Assembly (NCBI RefSeq): GCF_014879975.1
Contig: NZ_CP062500.1
Coordinates: 558,001-622,000, forward strand
DNA length: 64,000 nucleotides
Direction of reading: 5' to 3'
Origin: Vibrio bathopelagicus
GTDB taxonomy: Bacteria > Pseudomonadota > Gammaproteobacteria > Enterobacterales > Vibrionaceae
The position numbers and the translations under genes are program-made. Numbering within the stretch: the first letter of the stretch is position 1; the number at the start of each line of letters is the position of its first letter. Shown piece by piece: positions 46,512-54,968 of this stretch. The notes beneath the pieces were generated by a model. The model searched no databases and had not been told where the DNA came from. It saw only the letters and a program-made list of their open reading frames with translations.

Positions 46512-47012
46512 ATGAGTGAAGTTTCGTTAAAACAATCTGGTGTTCGTTGGTTATGGCTGGCTTTGCTGGTGTTCCTTGCTGATATCGGCATCAAACTCTT
46601 TGTCATGGACAACATGGGTTATGGTTGGGCAAACCGTATTGAGGTGTTGCCATTCTTTAACTTTTTGTATGTTCATAACTATGGTGCAGCATTTAGCTTT
46701 CTGAGCGATCAGAGCGGATGGCAGCGTTGGTTATTTACGGGTATCGCATTTGCGGTAACGGGTATGCTGACATACTGGATGAGTAAACTACCGGCGACAG
46801 AAAAGTGGAATAACATTGCTTATGCGATCATCATTGGTGGCGCGGTAGGTAACGTATTCGACCGTGTTGTGCATGGTTTTGTGGTTGATTACCTAGATTT
46901 CTACTGGGGCACCTACCATTGGCCTGCATTCAACTTGGCTGATATGGGGATCTGTATCGGTGCTGCGATGATCATCTTAGATGGCTTTCGCAAGAAAGAT
47001 GAAAGCAAATAG
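46512..47012 (+). CDS. lspA: Lipoprotein signal peptidase (signal peptidase II)
   Basis: Cleaves signal peptides from diacylglyceryl-prolipoproteins. 166 residues, four hydrophobic segments. The two catalytic Asp are in [21 protein letters not shown] (near 117-135) and [11 protein letters not shown] (near 145). Next in line after ileS, as in E. coli, and works downstream of Lgt, also in this window. Confidence 0.96.
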
Positions 47013-47102
47013 GTTACTCAGGCATTAATGAGTATTAAGTAAATCGCTTTGAAATAGATTGCCCTAAAGTCAGTCTATGACTCACAGAATAGAATAGCCT
47101 TA

Positions 47103-47137
47103 AGCGCTGTCGGTTGATTCCGACGGCGCTTTTTTTT
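47103..47137 (+). terminator. Terminator between lspA and fkpB
   Basis: AGCGCTGTCGG pairs with CCGACGGCGCT over a 6-nt loop (11 bp, one G-T) and is followed by seven T. Confidence 0.92.
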
Positions 47138-47206
47138 ATGCTTCAGTTAACAAGGAAGCAAAGCACAACGCGTCCTCAAATAATAAAGAAATCTAAGGAA
47201 AGTAAC

Positions 47207-47638
47207 GTGGCAGCAATTAAAAATGATTCAGCAGTAACTCTACATTTTACGATTAAAATGAAGGATGGTTCAGTTGCCGATAGTACCGAAAATATGGGTA
47301 AACCCGCTAAGTTCGTTATGGGTGATGGTAGCCTAAGCGAAAACTTCGAAGCGTGTTTGCTTGGGCTTGAAGCGGGTACAGAAAAGTCTATCGAACTGAC
47401 AGCACAAGATGCGTTTGGTATGCCTAATCCAGATCATATCCACCACATGGATAAAGCGAAGTTTGCTGGTGGTACTGATGTTGAAGTCGGTACTATCATG
47501 GCGTTCTCTGGCCCTGACGGTATGGAAATTCCTGGTATTATCACTGATATCGCAGGTGATTCAGTGACCGTTGATTTTAATCACCCATTAGCAGGCCAAG
47601 ACGTTACGTTTGACGTTAACATCTTAGCGGTGGACTAA
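47207..47638 (+). CDS. fkpB: FKBP-type peptidyl-prolyl isomerase FkpB (SlpA-like)
   Basis: 143 residues. The FKBP domain is split by an insert-in-flap domain: VTLHFTIKMKDGSVADST, FEACLLGLEAGTEKSIEL, then the insert DAFGMPNPDHIHHMD and FNHPLAGQDVTFDVNIL. Catalyses proline isomerisation and acts as a cytoplasmic chaperone. The GTG start after AAGGAA is preferred, since an upstream extension would cross the lspA terminator. The last codons (ILAVD-stop) are the first unit of a 20-bp tandem repeat. Confidence 0.94.
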   Translation: MAAIKNDSAVTLHFTIKMKDGSVADSTENMGKPAKFVMGDGSLSENFEACLLGLEAGTEKSIELTAQDAFGMPNPDHIHHMDKAKFAGGTDVEVGTIMAFSGPDGMEIPGIITDIAGDSVTVDFNHPLAGQDVTFDVNILAVD

Positions 47639-47700
47639 CTATCTTAGCGTTGGAATAACTATCTTAACGGTGGAGTAGCTATCGTAACGATAGAATCACA
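47621..47700. repeat. 20-bp tandem repeat, four units, starting inside fkpB
   Basis: Units at 47621, 47641, 47661 and 47681: ATCTTAGCGGTGGACTAACT, then copies with 2-4 changes, then a more degenerate last one. The first holds the fkpB terminal codons and stop codon. Confidence 0.85.
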
Positions 47701-47811
47701 TCGCCTTACAGGTGTGATACAACCCAGAGCTTCACTGTCTAGGCGCTTCACTGTAGAATGCGAACCTCGCTGACAGCGAACTCTATAGAAACAACCTTAG
47801 TACCGCGGTAA

Positions 47812-48771
47812 ATGATGAGCAATGAAATGAAAATAATGTTAGCTAACCCTCGTGGCTTTTGTGCTGGTGTCGATCGTGCGATCAGCATCGTAGAACGCGC
47901 ACTGGAAATGTATCAGCCACCGATCTATGTTCGCCATGAAGTGGTGCACAACCGCTTTGTTGTTGAGGGGCTCAAGCAGCGTGGTGCTATTTTTGTCGAA
48001 GAACTGAGTGAAGTGCCAGACGACAACATCGTGATCTTCTCTGCTCACGGTGTCTCTCAAGCGGTTCGTAAAGAAGCGAAAGAGCGTGAACTCACGGTAT
48101 TTGATGCAACATGCCCATTGGTAACCAAAGTACATATGGAAGTTGCTCGTGCTAGCCGCAAGCATATGGAAGTGGTTCTGATTGGTCACGCGGGTCACCC
48201 AGAAGTGGAAGGCACGATGGGTCAGTACGCTAGCCAAACCGGTGGAATGTACTTGGTTGAGAGGCCTGAGGACGTACAGAACCTCGTGGTGAATGACCCA
48301 AGCAACCTGCATTACGTTAGCCAAACTACGCTGTCAGTTGATGAAACGGCGGATGTGATTGAAGAGTTACGCCGCGTATTCCCTGAGATCCAAGGGCCAC
48401 GTAAAGATGATATTTGCTACGCAACACAAAACCGTCAAGACGCAATTCGTGAGATGGCTGGTGATGTCGATGTCGTGATTGTTGTCGGTTCTAAGAACTC
48501 ATCGAATTCAACACGTTTGAAAGAGCTGGCTGAGAAGCTAGGCACGCCAGGTTACCTAACCGATTGTCCTGAAGACATTCAAACTGAATGGGTTGAAGGG
48601 AAAAAGAAAATTGGTGTGACAGCGGGTGCTTCAGCTCCTGAAGAGCTAGTAAACCAAATCTTAGACCGTATTCGTGAGCTAGGTGCAACTGAAGTCGAAG
48701 AGATTCAAGGTCGCGAGGAGAACATGTTCTTCGAAGTACCGAAAGAGCTACAGATTAAGCAAGTCGATTAA
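47812..48771 (+). CDS. ispH: 4-hydroxy-3-methylbut-2-enyl diphosphate reductase
   Basis: Last enzyme of the MEP isoprenoid pathway; reduces HMBPP to IPP and DMAPP using a [4Fe-4S] cluster. 319 residues. The three cluster Cys are in [24 protein letters not shown] and [23 protein letters not shown] follows. The start is not fixed: ATG codons occur at 47812, 47815 and 47827. Downstream of fkpB, as in E. coli, separated by the tandem repeat region. Confidence 0.96.
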
Positions 48772-48825
48772 TCTCTATCGATTTGTGATACTAGCGATTC
48801 GTAACAAAGTCGATTCTTGAACAGT

Positions 48826-48857
48826 AAAAAGCCAACGTTGATACGTTGGCTTTTTTG
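48826..48857. terminator. Bidirectional terminator between ispH and btsR
   Basis: AAAAAGCCAACG, 5-nt loop, CGTTGGCTTTTTT. Confidence 0.92.
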
Positions 48858-48894
48858 ATCGTGCCTTGAAACAAGGCGCCGAATTTCTAACGGG

Positions 48895-49626
48895 TTACTG
48901 AAGACCGAGCTGTTCTTTTAAGGTTTTGAGATAACGGCGACTAACAGGTACTTCAAAGCCAGTCAGTGTAATGATCTCGGCTAATCCATTCTCTAACAAT
49001 TTGATCTCTTGGATCGATTTTATGTTGATCAAATATTGTCGATGACAGCGGATCAAATCGGTCTTTTCTTCTAGGATCTTCAGAGTTAACTGTGAGGTCG
49101 CAGTTTGTGATGAGCTACGAACATGCACACCACTGATATCTGAATAAGCGCACTCGACCGTTTGGCTTGCCATGATCACAATACGGTTGTGACCAATACA
49201 CGGAATTTGCTCTAAATGGCAGGGAGCAATCGCAGATATGTTTTGTTCTGGCGCTTTCTGGTTCTGATTGATGACTTTATTCAGACGACAAACACTCTTG
49301 TTTAATCGACAAGGCTCAACTGGTTTAAGTAGGTAATCAAAGGCATTGTCTTCAAATGCTTGAATCGCATATTGGTCGTAGGCGGTGACGAACACCACGT
49401 AGGGCATGGTGTCTGGGTCAAGCATGCTCAGTAGTTCTATCCCGGTAACTTGAGGCATTTGGATATCCAAGTACACCACATCCGGCTTGAGAAGGTTGAT
49501 CTGTTTCAGTCCTTCGATCGCGTTACTCGCTTGGCCAATAATTTCTACTTCACCGGTTTCAGTCAGTAGTTCAATCAGCTCCTCACGAGCAAAAAGCTCA
49601 TCATCGACAACTAGTGCCTTTAACAT
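48895..49626 (-). CDS. btsR: LytTR response regulator BtsR (YehT-like)
   Basis: 243 residues. Receiver domain with acidic residues in VVDDELFA, phospho-acceptor D54 in VVYLDIQMPQ, and KPV; then a LytTR DNA-binding domain (~140-243; IRCHRQYLINIKSIQEIK, VPVSRRYLKTLKEQL). In E. coli BtsSR senses extracellular pyruvate and induces the transporter btsT. Here it follows btsS by 103 bp, and a CstA-family transporter gene lies just upstream of both. LytTR proteins bind direct repeats about two helical turns apart. Confidence 0.9.
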   Translation of the reverse strand: MLKALVVDDELFAREELIELLTETGEVEIIGQASNAIEGLKQINLLKPDVVYLDIQMPQVTGIELLSMLDPDTMPYVVFVTAYDQYAIQAFEDNAFDYLLKPVEPCRLNKSVCRLNKVINQNQKAPEQNISAIAPCHLEQIPCIGHNRIVIMASQTVECAYSDISGVHVRSSSQTATSQLTLKILEEKTDLIRCHRQYLINIKSIQEIKLLENGLAEIITLTGFEVPVSRRYLKTLKEQLGLQ

Positions 49627-49729
49627 CCTACAATCTTCATCTTGATTCTATCCCTGCTTGATTCGCGCTTTTCTTTTAAATGTCTGCTTCTAAATTTCAA
49701 CTCGGAGCGATTCGTCTCTGAAAGTATCA

Positions 49730-51400
49730 TTAATTAAGTATAGGTATGATAAAGCTCATTCGAGTAAATTGCTGTGGTTGAGATTCTATTTTTAGTGCTG
49801 AATCTTGTCCAAAGAAATTAGTGAGTCGTTTATCAACAATTTCCATCCCTAAACCGACATGATCTTGAGATGGCTTCTGATAATTGCCAGCGTTGTCTTC
49901 AACGGTTAACTTGAACCCACCCTCGAAAGCCTCGCTATAGATCTTCACTTTGCCACCTTCCAGCATATTCGATATCCCATGTTTGATGGCGTTTTCTACC
50001 AGTGGTTGCAGGGTAAAGCTCGGCAGTTGCGATTCATACAGCTGTGGGTCGATATCCCACTCCACTTCTAATCGGTCGGTGAAACGAGCCTTCTCAATAG
50101 TGAGGTATGCATTGACGTGTGCCAGCTCGTCTTTGAGCTTTACGGTATTGATATTCTGCTTCAGGTTACTTCTAAAGAAGTGAGACAGATGCTGAATAAG
50201 CTCTCGTGCTTTATCTGGGTCACGGCGAGTAACGGCACTGATGGTGTTGAGCGCATTAAACAAGAAGTGTGGGTTCACTTGAGCGTGCAGCAGTTTGATT
50301 TCCGCTTGGGTGAGCAGTGTTTGCTGTTGCTGATAGTTGCTAAACAGGATCTGGCTCGACAAGAGTTGAGCGATACCTTCTGCCATCGACATGTTGATTG
50401 TTGAGAATAGCTTGAGTTTTGGCTCGTATAGTTTGATGGTTCCGACTACTTCATTACCTGCACGCAACGGAATAATTAACGCAGAACCTAATTTACAATC
50501 TTGAGATAGAGAGCATTGGTATGGGTTCTCTTTACCATCAAGGTAGATGATGTCGTTTTTTTCCATCGAGGTAAGGGTGCTTTGTGATGAAATCGGCGTG
50601 TTTGGAATATGGTGTTCATCGCCAATGCCGACGAACGCGAGGATTTTCTCTCGATCGGTAATCGCCACTGCACCAACATTGGTTTCTTCGTAAACGATAC
50701 GCACGATTTTTTGTGCGTTATCGGAATTAAACCCGCCATGCAGAATACCTACTGAACGTTCGGCGATGGTTAATGCGCGGCGAGAGAAGGTCGCTGAGTA
50801 TTTTTCGAAGATGGTTTTCCTGTCTTGGATGATGCTCATGAACAGCGCCGCACCCACAGAATTTGCGATGATCATTGGCGCGGCAATATCAGAGACTAGA
50901 GCGTAGGATTGTTCGAACGGTTTAGCGACTGCGAGCAAGATGCTCATCTGAATGATTTCGGCAAAAAGGGTCACAGAGAACACCACTAGAGGATTAAATA
51001 GCTGGCTGGCTTTGTTCTTTCTCACGAGGTAAACGTGTAACAAGCCACCAATCAAGCCTTCTGCTGTGGTTGAAATCGCGCAAGCTAGATCTGTGAATCC
51101 ACCCAAAGAGTAACGATGGATACCGCCAGTAAAACCGACCGCGAAGCCGACAACCGGACCACCGAACAGACCGCCCATTACCGCTCCCATCGCACGGGTG
51201 TTAGCGATGGCATCATTAATCTGTAATCCAAAATAGGTGCCCATAATACAGAACAGGGAAAACAGAACGTAGCAGCTGATTTTATGACTTAAGCGTGAAG
51301 AGATGCTCAACAAAGGGAGAATCAGTGGAGTCTTACTGAGCATGTAAGCAATCACTAAGTAGACACAAGTTTGTTGCAGAAGAGAGAGAATGAGTTCCAT
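49730..51400 (-). CDS. btsS: Sensor histidine kinase BtsS (YehU-like)
   Basis: 556 residues. Multi-pass N-terminal 5TMR-LYT sensor (~1-190, with MGAVMGGLFGGPVVGFAVGF), a GAF region (~220-350), a His_kinase domain with the phospho-acceptor in HAQVNPHFLFNALNTISA (near 375) and HATPase (LQPLVENAIKHG near 460; GVGLGMEIV-like glycines as HVGLGMEIVDKRL). The architecture matches E. coli BtsS (561 residues). Partner btsR lies downstream. Confidence 0.9.
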   Translation of the reverse strand: MELILSLLQQTCVYLVIAYMLSKTPLILPLLSISSRLSHKISCYVLFSLFCIMGTYFGLQINDAIANTRAMGAVMGGLFGGPVVGFAVGFTGGIHRYSLGGFTDLACAISTTAEGLIGGLLHVYLVRKNKASQLFNPLVVFSVTLFAEIIQMSILLAVAKPFEQSYALVSDIAAPMIIANSVGAALFMSIIQDRKTIFEKYSATFSRRALTIAERSVGILHGGFNSDNAQKIVRIVYEETNVGAVAITDREKILAFVGIGDEHHIPNTPISSQSTLTSMEKNDIIYLDGKENPYQCSLSQDCKLGSALIIPLRAGNEVVGTIKLYEPKLKLFSTINMSMAEGIAQLLSSQILFSNYQQQQTLLTQAEIKLLHAQVNPHFLFNALNTISAVTRRDPDKARELIQHLSHFFRSNLKQNINTVKLKDELAHVNAYLTIEKARFTDRLEVEWDIDPQLYESQLPSFTLQPLVENAIKHGISNMLEGGKVKIYSEAFEGGFKLTVEDNAGNYQKPSQDHVGLGMEIVDKRLTNFFGQDSALKIESQPQQFTRMSFIIPILN

Positions 51401-51522
51401 ATTTTCACCTATTGAGACGCTTGTTAAGTGTAAAGCTCATTGCGGGGTAACGGTAGCTTTGCTTGTCTTTTCATTGGTTATATCGGCCTCCCAGAGTCGG
51501 AGCACTAACGCCTACAAACAAT

Positions 51523-51548
51523 AAAGCCCATCACAGTGGACGGGCTTT
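51523..51548 (-). terminator. Terminator after cstA
   Basis: On the minus strand AAAGCCC ... GGGCTTT with a 12-nt loop, then ATTGTTTG. It lies between cstA and btsS, so the two are probably separate transcripts with partial readthrough. The stem is short. Confidence 0.6.
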
Positions 51549-51663
51549 AGTTTTAATTTCCACGAATCACCGAGTGATTGCGGGAGCAAGCGAAGTTGTG
51601 CTTGGCAGTTCTTTTGTCTCTTTCTATGAAGATTGGTTTCTTGTTATCAAGAGCCTTAAAGAA

Positions 51664-53157
51664 CTAGGCTGTTTTAGTAACTGGTTTTGACTCTTGATCT
51701 TGCTCGTCGTCAGCTAGGTCGATATCGCCTTTGCCTTTTGAAATCTTGATAACGTAAGCCGTAATCAGTAGAGATGAAACCACACCTACGATTGTTGAGA
51801 TTTGCATAGGTAGACCAAAACCTAGTTGGCTGTTGTTCAGGATGAATGTGATACACACAGACGTCATGAAGATAGCTGGAACCGTTGTTACCCAGTGCAG
51901 TTTGTTGTGACGAAGTAGGTAAGCTGAAGCAGTCCACAGCATCATTACTGCTGTTGATTGGTTAGCAAAACCGAAGTAGCGCCAGATGATACCGAAATCT
52001 ACTTGAGTCAGGATGCCACCAAGAACGAATAACGGTAGTGCCATTAATAGTCGGTTACGCAGCGTTTTCTGTTCCATGTTGAAGTATTCAGCAAGGATAA
52101 GACGGCTTGAACGGAACGCTGTGTCACCAGAAGTGATAGGTAGGATAACCACGCCAAGGAAAGCAAGGATACCGCCAAATACACCCAGTAGGCCAAATGA
52201 AGCGCTGTATACCACGTTACCTGGACCACCATTTGCAATCGCGTCAGACAAAGACTCAACTGAACCGAAGAACGACAGAGCAAGTGCACACCAGATTAGA
52301 GCGATGATGCCTTCACCAATCATTGCGCCGTAGAATACGAAGCGGCCGTTCTTCTCGTTTTCCATACAACGCGCCATCAAAGGAGACTGAGTTGCGTGGA
52401 AGCCAGAGATAGCACCACATGCGATGGTGATGAATAGAGCAGGCCAAAGTGGTAGGTCATTCGGGTTCATGTTGGTGAACATGTCGCTCATCTCAAAACC
52501 ACCCATGATTTGGTGTTCGTCAGATAGACCAATCGCCGTGATTAGGCCAACAGACATAAAGATAAGTAGTGCACCGAACAGTGGGTAGAAGCGACCAATG
52601 ATTTTATCGACAGGGACAATCGTTGCGATGATGTAGTAAGCAAAGATGATAACAACCATAGTGCTTGCAGACATTACGAAATCAGTTTGGTCGTTCACTA
52701 GGTTAGTGATCATGCCGGCAGGAGCAGAAACGAATACCACACCAACAAGAAGCAGTAGAACAATGGCAAAGATGTTCATAAAGTGTTTTGCGCCATTGCC
52801 TAGGTAACGTCCAGTGATGGTTGGAACCGAAGCGCCGCCATTACGGATAGATAACATACCTGAGAAGTAGTCGTGTACTGCACCTGCGAAGATACAACCT
52901 AGTACAATCCAAAGCATTGCTGCTGGGCCGTAAAGGGCACCCATGATAGGGCCGAAGATTGGACCGACACCTGCAATGTTAAGCAGTTGAACTAGGTAAA
53001 CCTTTGGCGTCGACATTGGAACGTAGTCCACGCCGTCTTGCTTGGTATGCGCTGGGGTTTGACGCTTTTCATTGATACCGAAAATCTTCTCGATAAAGGC
53101 ACCGTAAATAAAGTAGCCACCAATGAGTGCTGCGACGCAGGTAAGAAACCACATCAT
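51664..53157 (-). CDS. cstA: CstA-family (pyruvate/peptide) transporter, short form
   Basis: 497 residues with about 14-16 hydrophobic segments. The family core is clear: NIAGVGPIFGPIMGALYGP (near 62), FAGAVHDYFSGMLSIRNGGAS (near 90), GAISGFHATQSPLMARCMENE, and LPITSGDTAFRSSRLILAE. E. coli CstA and BtsT are about 200 residues longer; this is the short form. Homologues move pyruvate or peptides. The LytTR system btsSR next door and the box array upstream suggest BtsSR control; the symbol follows the family, and substrate is not shown by sequence. Confidence 0.85.
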   Translation of the reverse strand: MMWFLTCVAALIGGYFIYGAFIEKIFGINEKRQTPAHTKQDGVDYVPMSTPKVYLVQLLNIAGVGPIFGPIMGALYGPAAMLWIVLGCIFAGAVHDYFSGMLSIRNGGASVPTITGRYLGNGAKHFMNIFAIVLLLLVGVVFVSAPAGMITNLVNDQTDFVMSASTMVVIIFAYYIIATIVPVDKIIGRFYPLFGALLIFMSVGLITAIGLSDEHQIMGGFEMSDMFTNMNPNDLPLWPALFITIACGAISGFHATQSPLMARCMENEKNGRFVFYGAMIGEGIIALIWCALALSFFGSVESLSDAIANGGPGNVVYSASFGLLGVFGGILAFLGVVILPITSGDTAFRSSRLILAEYFNMEQKTLRNRLLMALPLFVLGGILTQVDFGIIWRYFGFANQSTAVMMLWTASAYLLRHNKLHWVTTVPAIFMTSVCITFILNNSQLGFGLPMQISTIVGVVSSLLITAYVIKISKGKGDIDLADDEQDQESKPVTKTA

Positions 53158-53531
53158 AATTTGTTATCCCTGAATGTATTAATTAAGTCAGGGTGTATAT
53201 TAAAGGAGTCGATGAGAAGAAACTTCCGCTACTGGAGTTAGTGGTCGAATAGCCAATTTAGTGGTGCTATAACTGATTGAGTGGTTTGTCATCTTCACGG
53301 AGTGGTTGATTCTTTGTGTCGAGCGGCTTATTGACCCAGTAGACAGGTTGATAGATCTAGCAGAGAGGTGGATTGAAGCTGTGGGCGGTAGGTTGCTGCT
53401 CTTGAGTGGTCTGTATCAGTCTCAAGCGGAGAACATGAGACAATGAGTGGACATCAGTACTCGTTCAGCGGAGAATCAGCACAAAGGCAACGCTTCGTCA
53501 GGAAGTGGTTAGGTAAATATAAAGGACTGAA
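53158..53531. other. cstA / DUF2799 divergent intergenic region
   Basis: No gene. It contains the box array and, next to the cstA start, an inverted repeat CCCTGA (53168) with TCAGGG (53188) that could fold in the cstA leader. The DUF2799 gene starts ~20 bp after the last box. Confidence 0.6.
53240..53509 (-). promoter_or_regulatory. Phased AGYGGW box array upstream of cstA (putative BtsR operator array)
   Basis: Boxes (plus strand) start at 53240, 53260, 53280, 53301 (all AGTGGT), 53322 AGCGGC, 53343 ACAGGT, 53364 AGAGGT, 53384 GGCGGT, 53405 AGTGGT, 53425 AGCGGA, 53446 AGTGGA, 53467 AGCGGA and, after one irregular step, 53504 AGTGGT. Spacing is 20 or 21 bp throughout. On the cstA strand the boxes read ACCACTCA at 53285 and 53410, matching the E. 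coli BtsR motif ACC[AG]CT[CT]A, which occurs there as two copies with a 21-bp period. The first box is 82 bp from the cstA start. Confidence 0.6.
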
Positions 53532-53882
53532 ATGAAAAAAATAATCGCACTATTCGCCGTGGCATTTAGCCTTGCAGGATGCAGCGCTAATGTTCAAGAT
53601 TTAGCGGCTGAAGGTAATTGGCAAGAGATTGGCTACCGTGATGGCATCAAGGGCCATACTCAGCGTTCGTATTCAGAGATGACTGAGCTTGGTGCTGTTG
53701 ATCAAGCCAGTTATACAGAAGGTTATCACTTAGGTGTGACCGAGTTCTGCAACCCTAACCATGCTTATCAGATTGGTTTGTCTGGTCAGGTATATGAAGG
53801 TGTGTGTTCTGGTACAGAAGACGCTCAACGTTTTCGTATGGAATGGCAACGTGGTTGGGATGAGTTCTCGAACGATTATTAA
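53532..53882 (+). CDS. DUF2799 lipoprotein
   Basis: 116 residues. Lipoprotein signal with lipobox LAGC at residues ~14-17, predicted lipidated. The mature region fits DUF2799: WQEIGYRDGIKGHTQRS, then YTEGYHLGVTEFCNPNHAYQIGLSGQVYEGVC, with paired Cys. Function unknown. It starts beside the box array and so could share regulation with cstA, though that is inference. Confidence 0.85.
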   Translation: MKKIIALFAVAFSLAGCSANVQDLAAEGNWQEIGYRDGIKGHTQRSYSEMTELGAVDQASYTEGYHLGVTEFCNPNHAYQIGLSGQVYEGVCSGTEDAQRFRMEWQRGWDEFSNDY

Positions 53883-53909
53883 TCCGGCTTACGGTTAATT
53901 CACTATCTT

Positions 53910-53960
53910 GCTAAATAAAAAACATCTAGCTAAATAAAAAACATCTAGCTAAATAAAAAA
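53910..53960. repeat. 19-bp tandem repeat, 2.7 copies
   Basis: GCTAAATAAAAAACATCTA at 53910 and 53929 (identical), and a partial third copy at 53948 that runs into the terminator stem. Confidence 0.85.
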
Positions 53961-53987
53961 ACCAGTACCTCATGTGTACTGGTTTTT
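53955..53987. terminator. Bidirectional terminator between DUF2799 gene and murQ
   Basis: AAAAACCAGTAC, CTCATGT loop, GTACTGGTTTTTT. Confidence 0.9.
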
Positions 53988-54026
53988 TGTATCACGCTTT
54001 CATCAGTATCGAAGACTAATCGGCGT

Positions 54027-54968
<942 letters not shown>

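Follow-up and report, generated by a model that had tools for sequence, protein, structure and literature searches.

The window (the whole stretch of 64,000 nucleotides analysed here) contains a cstA/btsU-type pyruvate transporter gene on the minus strand, encoding a CstA family protein of 497 aa (51664..53157, PF02554). Downstream of cstA and on the same strand lie btsS, coding for a LytS-type histidine kinase (49730..51400, 57% identity to E. coli BtsS), and btsR, coding for a LytTR response regulator (48895..49626, 49% identity to E. coli BtsR). A terminator-like hairpin is found between cstA and btsS (51522..51549, minus strand), one of four terminator-like matches on both strands versus 0.3 expected from shuffles. 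The divergent neighbour of cstA is a DUF2799 gene on the plus strand (53532..53882, PF10973), and just past it there is a tandem repeat, ATCTAGCTAAATAAAAAAC, of 2.9 copies (53905-53960). The closest named locus is that of V. splendidus (99% over CstA), by which the window is placed in the splendidus group.

The 374-bp gap between the cstA start codon, which ends at 53157, and the DUF2799 start at 53532 holds a phased array of 12 BtsR-type boxes (53238..53472), which read TRAGYGGT on the plus strand and ACCRCTYA on the cstA strand and recur with a period of 20-21 bp. The AGYGGW-like boxes start at 53240, 53260, 53280, 53301, 53322, 53343, 53364, 53384, 53405, 53425, 53446 and 53467, head to tail and all in one orientation, and every step between these in-phase positions is 20 or 21, in agreement with the original prediction. 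That prediction had counted about 13 phased boxes; the phasing stands but the number does not, since the thirteenth box, at 53504, lies 37 bp after the one at 53467 and is therefore out of phase. This off-phase box (GAAGTGGT, 53502..53509, plus strand), 37 bp past the last phased unit, is probably not a member of the array, although it has to be included for six boxes to read exactly AGTGGT, as had been claimed. The three boxes nearest to the cstA promoter form a core (TTAGTGGT, TTAGTGGT and TGAGTGGT, 53238..53285, plus strand), followed by boxes 4-11 (53299..53451, plus strand; starts 53299, 53320, 53341, 53362, 53382, 53403, 53423 and 53444), of which the one starting at 53341 (53343 in the AGYGGW count) is weak, being read by eye as ACAGGT with two changes. 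Two boxes of the array match TRAGYGGT at 8/8. The motif of E. coli BtsR, ACCACTCA on the cstA strand and TGAGTGGT on the plus strand, was correctly placed in two boxes, at 53278 and 53403.

Boxes were scored by their matches to the 8-bp TRAGYGGT, and a chain counts the boxes of at least 6/8 that follow each other at allowed steps. By this measure, the gap in the window holds one chain of 11 boxes, whereas none of 2000 dinucleotide-preserving shuffles reached 11 and the longest shuffled chain was 4. Chains built on the real sequence with any other period from 12 to 39 also had at most 4 boxes, and the opposite strand of the gap gave a chain of 1. Tandem Repeats Finder (minimum score 30) reported no repeat at the array, because only the box and the spacing recur and the spacer does not. 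The non-repeating spacers indicate an array of sites and not a satellite, and a simple tandem repeat was rejected, as the whole unit is not repeated. An RNA element was likewise rejected, the one Rfam match over 47000-54100 being at 47067-47137 (E 0.041, 24.2 bits versus a gathering score of 43), and so were CsrA-type GGA sites on the cstA mRNA, since the boxes read ACCACT on that strand.

A second array with a 20-bp period, TAACTATCTTAGCGGTGGAA in 3.4 copies, lies between slpA and ispH (47617-47690). The slpA-ispH gap of splendidus-group relatives varies in length by steps of about 20 bp, and its units resemble the slpA 3′ end. It was rejected as a further BtsR array, given that its units are like copies of the slpA 3′ end and occur only in splendidus-group loci among those listed; the box-like TTAGCGGT within it looks like a coincidence of codons.

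Conservation of the boxes and co-occurrence with BtsR

The genus sample comprised 118 genomes, with cstA in 114 and BtsR (E 1e-60) in 110; these genome loci overlap with the named loci. As had been suggested, the boxes in other Vibrio cstA promoters were counted, and at least three phased boxes (at least 6/8) precede cstA in all 110 BtsR-positive genomes, with a range of 3-11 and a chain of just three in 26 of them. When at least 7/8 was required, 109 of the 110 genomes have two or more boxes (G023 has one), and at least three are present in 102 of the 110 regions, compared to 0 of 2200 shuffles. The distance from the first box to the cstA start codon is 71-100 bp in 109 of these genomes and exactly 80 bp in 32. 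Chain steps were 20 (536 times), 21 (151 times) or 40-42 (29 times), under a rule that permits no others. The distances between pairs of boxes, free of such a limit, were counted in 150 distinct cstA-DUF2799 gaps, kept from 194 loci after dropping duplicates, loci with no DUF2799 within 800 bp and sequences with N. In these gaps, exact AGYGGT occurs 579 times on the plus strand and 5 times on the other, with pair distances of 20 bp (269 times), 40 bp (203 times) and 60 bp (89 times), while reversed and complemented control motifs gave no 20/40/60-bp peak. Hence, the periodicity, whose absence from closely related species was to count against the original prediction, is present in them.

Four genomes (G032, G067, G088 and G112) keep cstA and have no BtsR orthologue, a looser search giving nothing but matches of 29-39% identity, none of which extends past residue 175 of the 243-residue query. 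They have 0, 0, 1 and 1 boxes at 7/8 or better; in G112, three weak boxes form a chain at 6/8, and chains of that length also arise in 62 of 2200 shuffles of BtsR-positive regions. On the CstA tree, which covers 111 of the 114 genomes (G002, G117 and G059, from which no full protein was taken, were left out), the four represent two losses of BtsR, both concordant with loss of the array; as there are only two losses, the pairs test (p 0.5) cannot reach significance.

A strict triple-box pattern, used to see how specific the boxes are to cstA, gave 71 matches in 57 of the 118 genomes, and 70 of these, from 56 genomes, are found upstream of cstA at a distance of at most 450 bp; the sole strict triple elsewhere (G075) is, judging from the sequence, an ordinary tandem repeat. 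With the pattern reversed, the control matched 18 times, twice in G061 and 16 times in G071. The window's own genome is missing among the strict matches because one box departs from the strict form. Paired boxes matched four times in that genome, including the window's own, versus nine times for the reversed control, and thus give no evidence of a wider regulon.

BtsR-type boxes outside the genus

In the wider order, this CstA (E 1e-150) was found in 72 of 197 genomes and BtsR (E 1e-45) in 88, and here T or C was accepted at the last box position, whereas only T was accepted in the genus count. The scoring left out L287 (G294, start not found), G299 and G230. The 49 BtsR-positive regions outside the genus have 2-5 boxes at 6/8; at 7/8, three of them have one box, 42 have two or three, and four have four. 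All seven BtsR-negative regions have none or one box at 7/8, but they represent two families, in which CstA is only 53-62% identical to the query and is perhaps another target. Close relatives of E. coli BtsT (85-94% identical, 11 loci) have one to three boxes, and no more than one is present at any of 16 remoter CstA-type paralogues, the start of two of these (L273 and L277) being placed by a weak match.

The BtsR motif was reportedly described by Kraxenberger in 2012 as a pair of copies, and the original prediction took the E. coli site to be two copies. This needs correction, since the E. coli K-12 btsT promoter has three phased boxes, TGAGTGGT, TAAGCGGT and TGAGCGGC, at steps of 21 and 20 (L201:5916-5984), and a weak fourth box 20 bp beyond the third. 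All three boxes fall inside the oligonucleotide that Behr et al. 2016 list, in the accessible part of the paper, as the yjiY YehT (BtsR) binding site (PMC4847170). The E. coli picture is thereby extended to a phased triplet with a weak fourth box, two or three boxes being usual across the order, and the promoter-proximal triplet of the window is the counterpart of these.

In summary, the claim that the boxes are BtsR-type and belong to cstA is upheld by the element at E. coli btsT, by their presence in 110 of 110 BtsR-positive genomes and by there being at most one at 7/8 in BtsR-negative ones. The box match, the direct repeats at 20-21 bp, the CstA-family gene and the co-occurrence with BtsR were all found as for a BtsR (YehT) operator. 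As judged from its sequence, the array is a real, conserved and expanded BtsR-type (LytTR) operator.

Promoter elements and proposed mechanism

A candidate -10 element of cstA, TAATAT (53197..53202, minus strand), is conserved as TAnnaT in 91 aligned regions, which had been picked for holding a strict pair of boxes; it lies 36-41 nt from the end of box 1. The hexamer 17 nt upstream of it (A-t-G--T, minus strand), which would be a weak -35 position (53220-53225), is weakly conserved in the same regions, with 12 nt between it and box 1. This layout resembles that of a LytTR-activated promoter. In the accessible part of a survey of LytTR regulatory systems (PMC6193735), a bias to 10 bp upstream of the -35 is described, the repeats of LRS operons lying mostly at about that distance. 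On the DUF2799 side, a sigma-70-like TGGACA-17-GAGAAT (53448-53476, plus strand) lies inside the last two array units (53444..53476) and is a candidate DUF2799 promoter. It is one of two promoter-like matches in 501 bases, versus 0.8 expected from shuffles, and the other overlaps the cstA start codon. Both hexamers are largely conserved in the splendidus-group alignment. Should DUF2799 indeed be transcribed from here, a fully occupied array would lie over its promoter.

We consider it quite likely that the array is the BtsR operator of cstA, loaded at its proximal end, filled by outward spread, lowering the threshold of the response and grown unit by unit. The pyruvate-sensing pair BtsS/BtsR would switch on cstA/btsU through it, with one LytTR domain of BtsR per box. 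Neighbouring boxes are two helical turns apart, so that all boxes would lie on one face of the DNA. Phosphorylated BtsR would load at the strong proximal triplet, just upstream of the weak -35 and the good -10, and recruit RNA polymerase to cstA. From there it could spread to the weaker distal boxes by contacts between neighbours, and the extra boxes would stabilise the proximal complex, so that a lower pyruvate level may be needed. Ancestrally there would have been two or three boxes, and whole units of 20-21 bp, gained and lost, would have brought the array to its present length. We infer BtsR occupancy, activation, cooperativity, the threshold effect and the ancestral box number from the arrangement of the sites.

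Binding was modelled with nearest-neighbour coupling and assumed parameters. When the number of boxes is raised from 3 to 12, the half-point drops by as much as threefold if coupling is strong and by about one seventh if it is weak. Most of the gain in threshold is obtained by 5-8 boxes and then fades, and the slopes, of about 1.4-2.4, do not rise further after 3-5 boxes. This suggests that, under the assumed parameters, boxes beyond about 3-5 would lower the pyruvate threshold and would not sharpen it, and a sharp threshold from many sites, one of the effects named in the original prediction, was rejected on account of this plateau. As the gain fades beyond about 5-8 boxes, the model alone does not explain 11 or 12.

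Variation in array length and alternative explanations

The gap varies in length among close relatives of the window (about 250, 290, 310, 332, 354 and 374 bp), and in the alignment, the differences amount to about whole units and lie inside the array. Arrays of at least eight boxes are seen in members of the splendidus and harveyi groups, as well as in a few other lineages, with 10-11 boxes in V. owensii, V. harveyi, V. jasicida and V. rotiferianus of the harveyi group. Such variation could mean that only the proximal triplet works and that the distal boxes arose as a side effect when units were duplicated and were tolerated for being in phase and harmless, a possibility that we take seriously but regard as rather unlikely. 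It is consistent with the consensus match, which is highest on average in units 1-3 (7.5-7.75 of 8) and about 7 and less outward (151 distinct regions), with the 6-10 boxes found among three genomes labelled V. splendidus (separate species in the collection), and with V. fortis (L018), whose array is one 20-bp unit longer than that of a close relative and near twin (L126), the extra unit being a near-exact copy of its neighbour. The 26 BtsR-positive genomes that manage with chains of just three also fit it. However, long arrays recur in several clades, and the distal boxes are better conserved than the spacers. In the harveyi group, conservation is 0.851 for distal boxes versus 0.688 for spacers (p 0.0008, four distinct sequences), and in the splendidus group, it is 0.892 versus 0.796 for units 4-10 (p 0.005) in 13 sequences, from a length class of 15 from which L167 and L127 were removed; columns were taken as independent in the permutations. 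The splendidus difference is modest for units 4-8 alone (p 0.03), and a run that included the Photobacterium row L167 and a one-base misregister in two units gave no difference (p 0.33).

Beyond the operator proposed above, a bolder and doubtful extension would make the array a length-variable track on which BtsR polymerises, acting as an evolved dial of pyruvate sensitivity, with the far end of the track lying over the DUF2799 promoter. One and the same filament would then switch on the uptake of pyruvate and shut off the divergent DUF2799 gene.

The array could also titrate BtsR, soaking it up and thereby buffering or delaying the response, with the number of units setting the dose of decoy sites. 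By strict triples (70 of the 71 matches), cstA is the one BtsR target in the genus sample, so that 12 sites in one place could bind a large part of a regulator that is scarce. Among 107 of the 110 BtsR-positive genomes, moreover, btsS follows cstA directly on its 3′ side in 34, of which 23 have at least seven boxes, versus 3 of the 73 with btsS elsewhere. This link is, however, not independent of descent (one pair on supported branches), for which reason the btsSR layout was also rejected as the cause of long arrays, and the sites are in register with the promoter rather than elsewhere. We regard titration as improbable.

That the array is the operator of the DUF2799 gene, instead of or besides cstA, is less probable still. 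In 112 of 114 genome loci, a DUF2799 gene starts on the far side of the array, no more than 450 bp from cstA, and the candidate DUF2799 promoter overlaps the last two units. Yet the boxes are still next to cstA in those Photobacterium, Grimontia and Enterovibrio loci that yielded no DUF2799 gene within 3 kb. They also remain there in V. penaeicida, where DUF2799 is 1.6 kb off, and in other families, and the first box keeps a fairly constant distance from the cstA start. Finally, it is very improbable that a direct-repeat-binding regulator other than BtsR occupies the array: the LytTR proteins CoxC and RcoM-1 also use evenly spaced repeats, according to the accessible part of PMC11347149, but the element matches that in the published YehT (BtsR) site oligonucleotide, as far as the paper is accessible, and the array is lost together with BtsR.

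Relation to known LytTR operators

The operator of AgrA is a LytTR operator of two repeats. According to the accessible part of PMC4847170, almost all sites of LytTR regulators consist of two repeats, of 9-11 nt each and 11-13 nt apart. The array agrees with this in its spacing (8-bp boxes with 12-13 nt between them) and exceeds it in number, with 12 boxes. The YpdB and HdrR operators (PMC4847170 and PMC6193735, accessible parts) share the direct repeats two turns apart and have two repeats only. Operators of three repeats are described for RcoM-1 and CoxC in the part of PMC11347149 that is accessible; like the window array, they are evenly spaced 8-bp direct repeats bound by LytTR proteins, 12-13 bp apart in the case of RcoM-1, but they stop at three, have a different consensus and, in the case of CoxC, serve repression. 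BldC is alike in its working only, as a cooperative multimer on direct repeats, and is MerR-like and not of the LytTR family (PMC5859096, accessible part).

BtsR motifs have been deduced for a set of species that includes one Vibrio (PMC5552118, accessible part). Within the literature that could be searched, which did not include Going et al. 2021 or Kraxenberger et al. 2012, no BtsR array of comparable size was found, and no BtsR box is given in the accessible parts of PMC10653868, PMC9504724, PMC3875573 and PMC7730263. The BtsS/BtsR-btsU system of Vibrio campbellii (Going et al. 2021, as cited in the accessible parts of PMC10653868 and PMC9504724) has the same kind of genes as the window; V. 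campbellii is outside the named loci, and the four harveyi-group species listed above have 10-11 boxes.

Across the related species, one promoter thus occurs with anything from 3 to 11 phased sites for the same regulator, and in this naturally graded set the effect of site number on cooperativity, threshold and output could be measured. The closest known counterpart is the BtsR site of E. coli btsT (yjiY), which has the same 8-bp box, the same orientation to the transporter gene and the same 20-21 bp steps, with three boxes and a weak fourth where the window array has 12. Hence, the novelty is an unusually long, length-variable form of a known LytTR operator.
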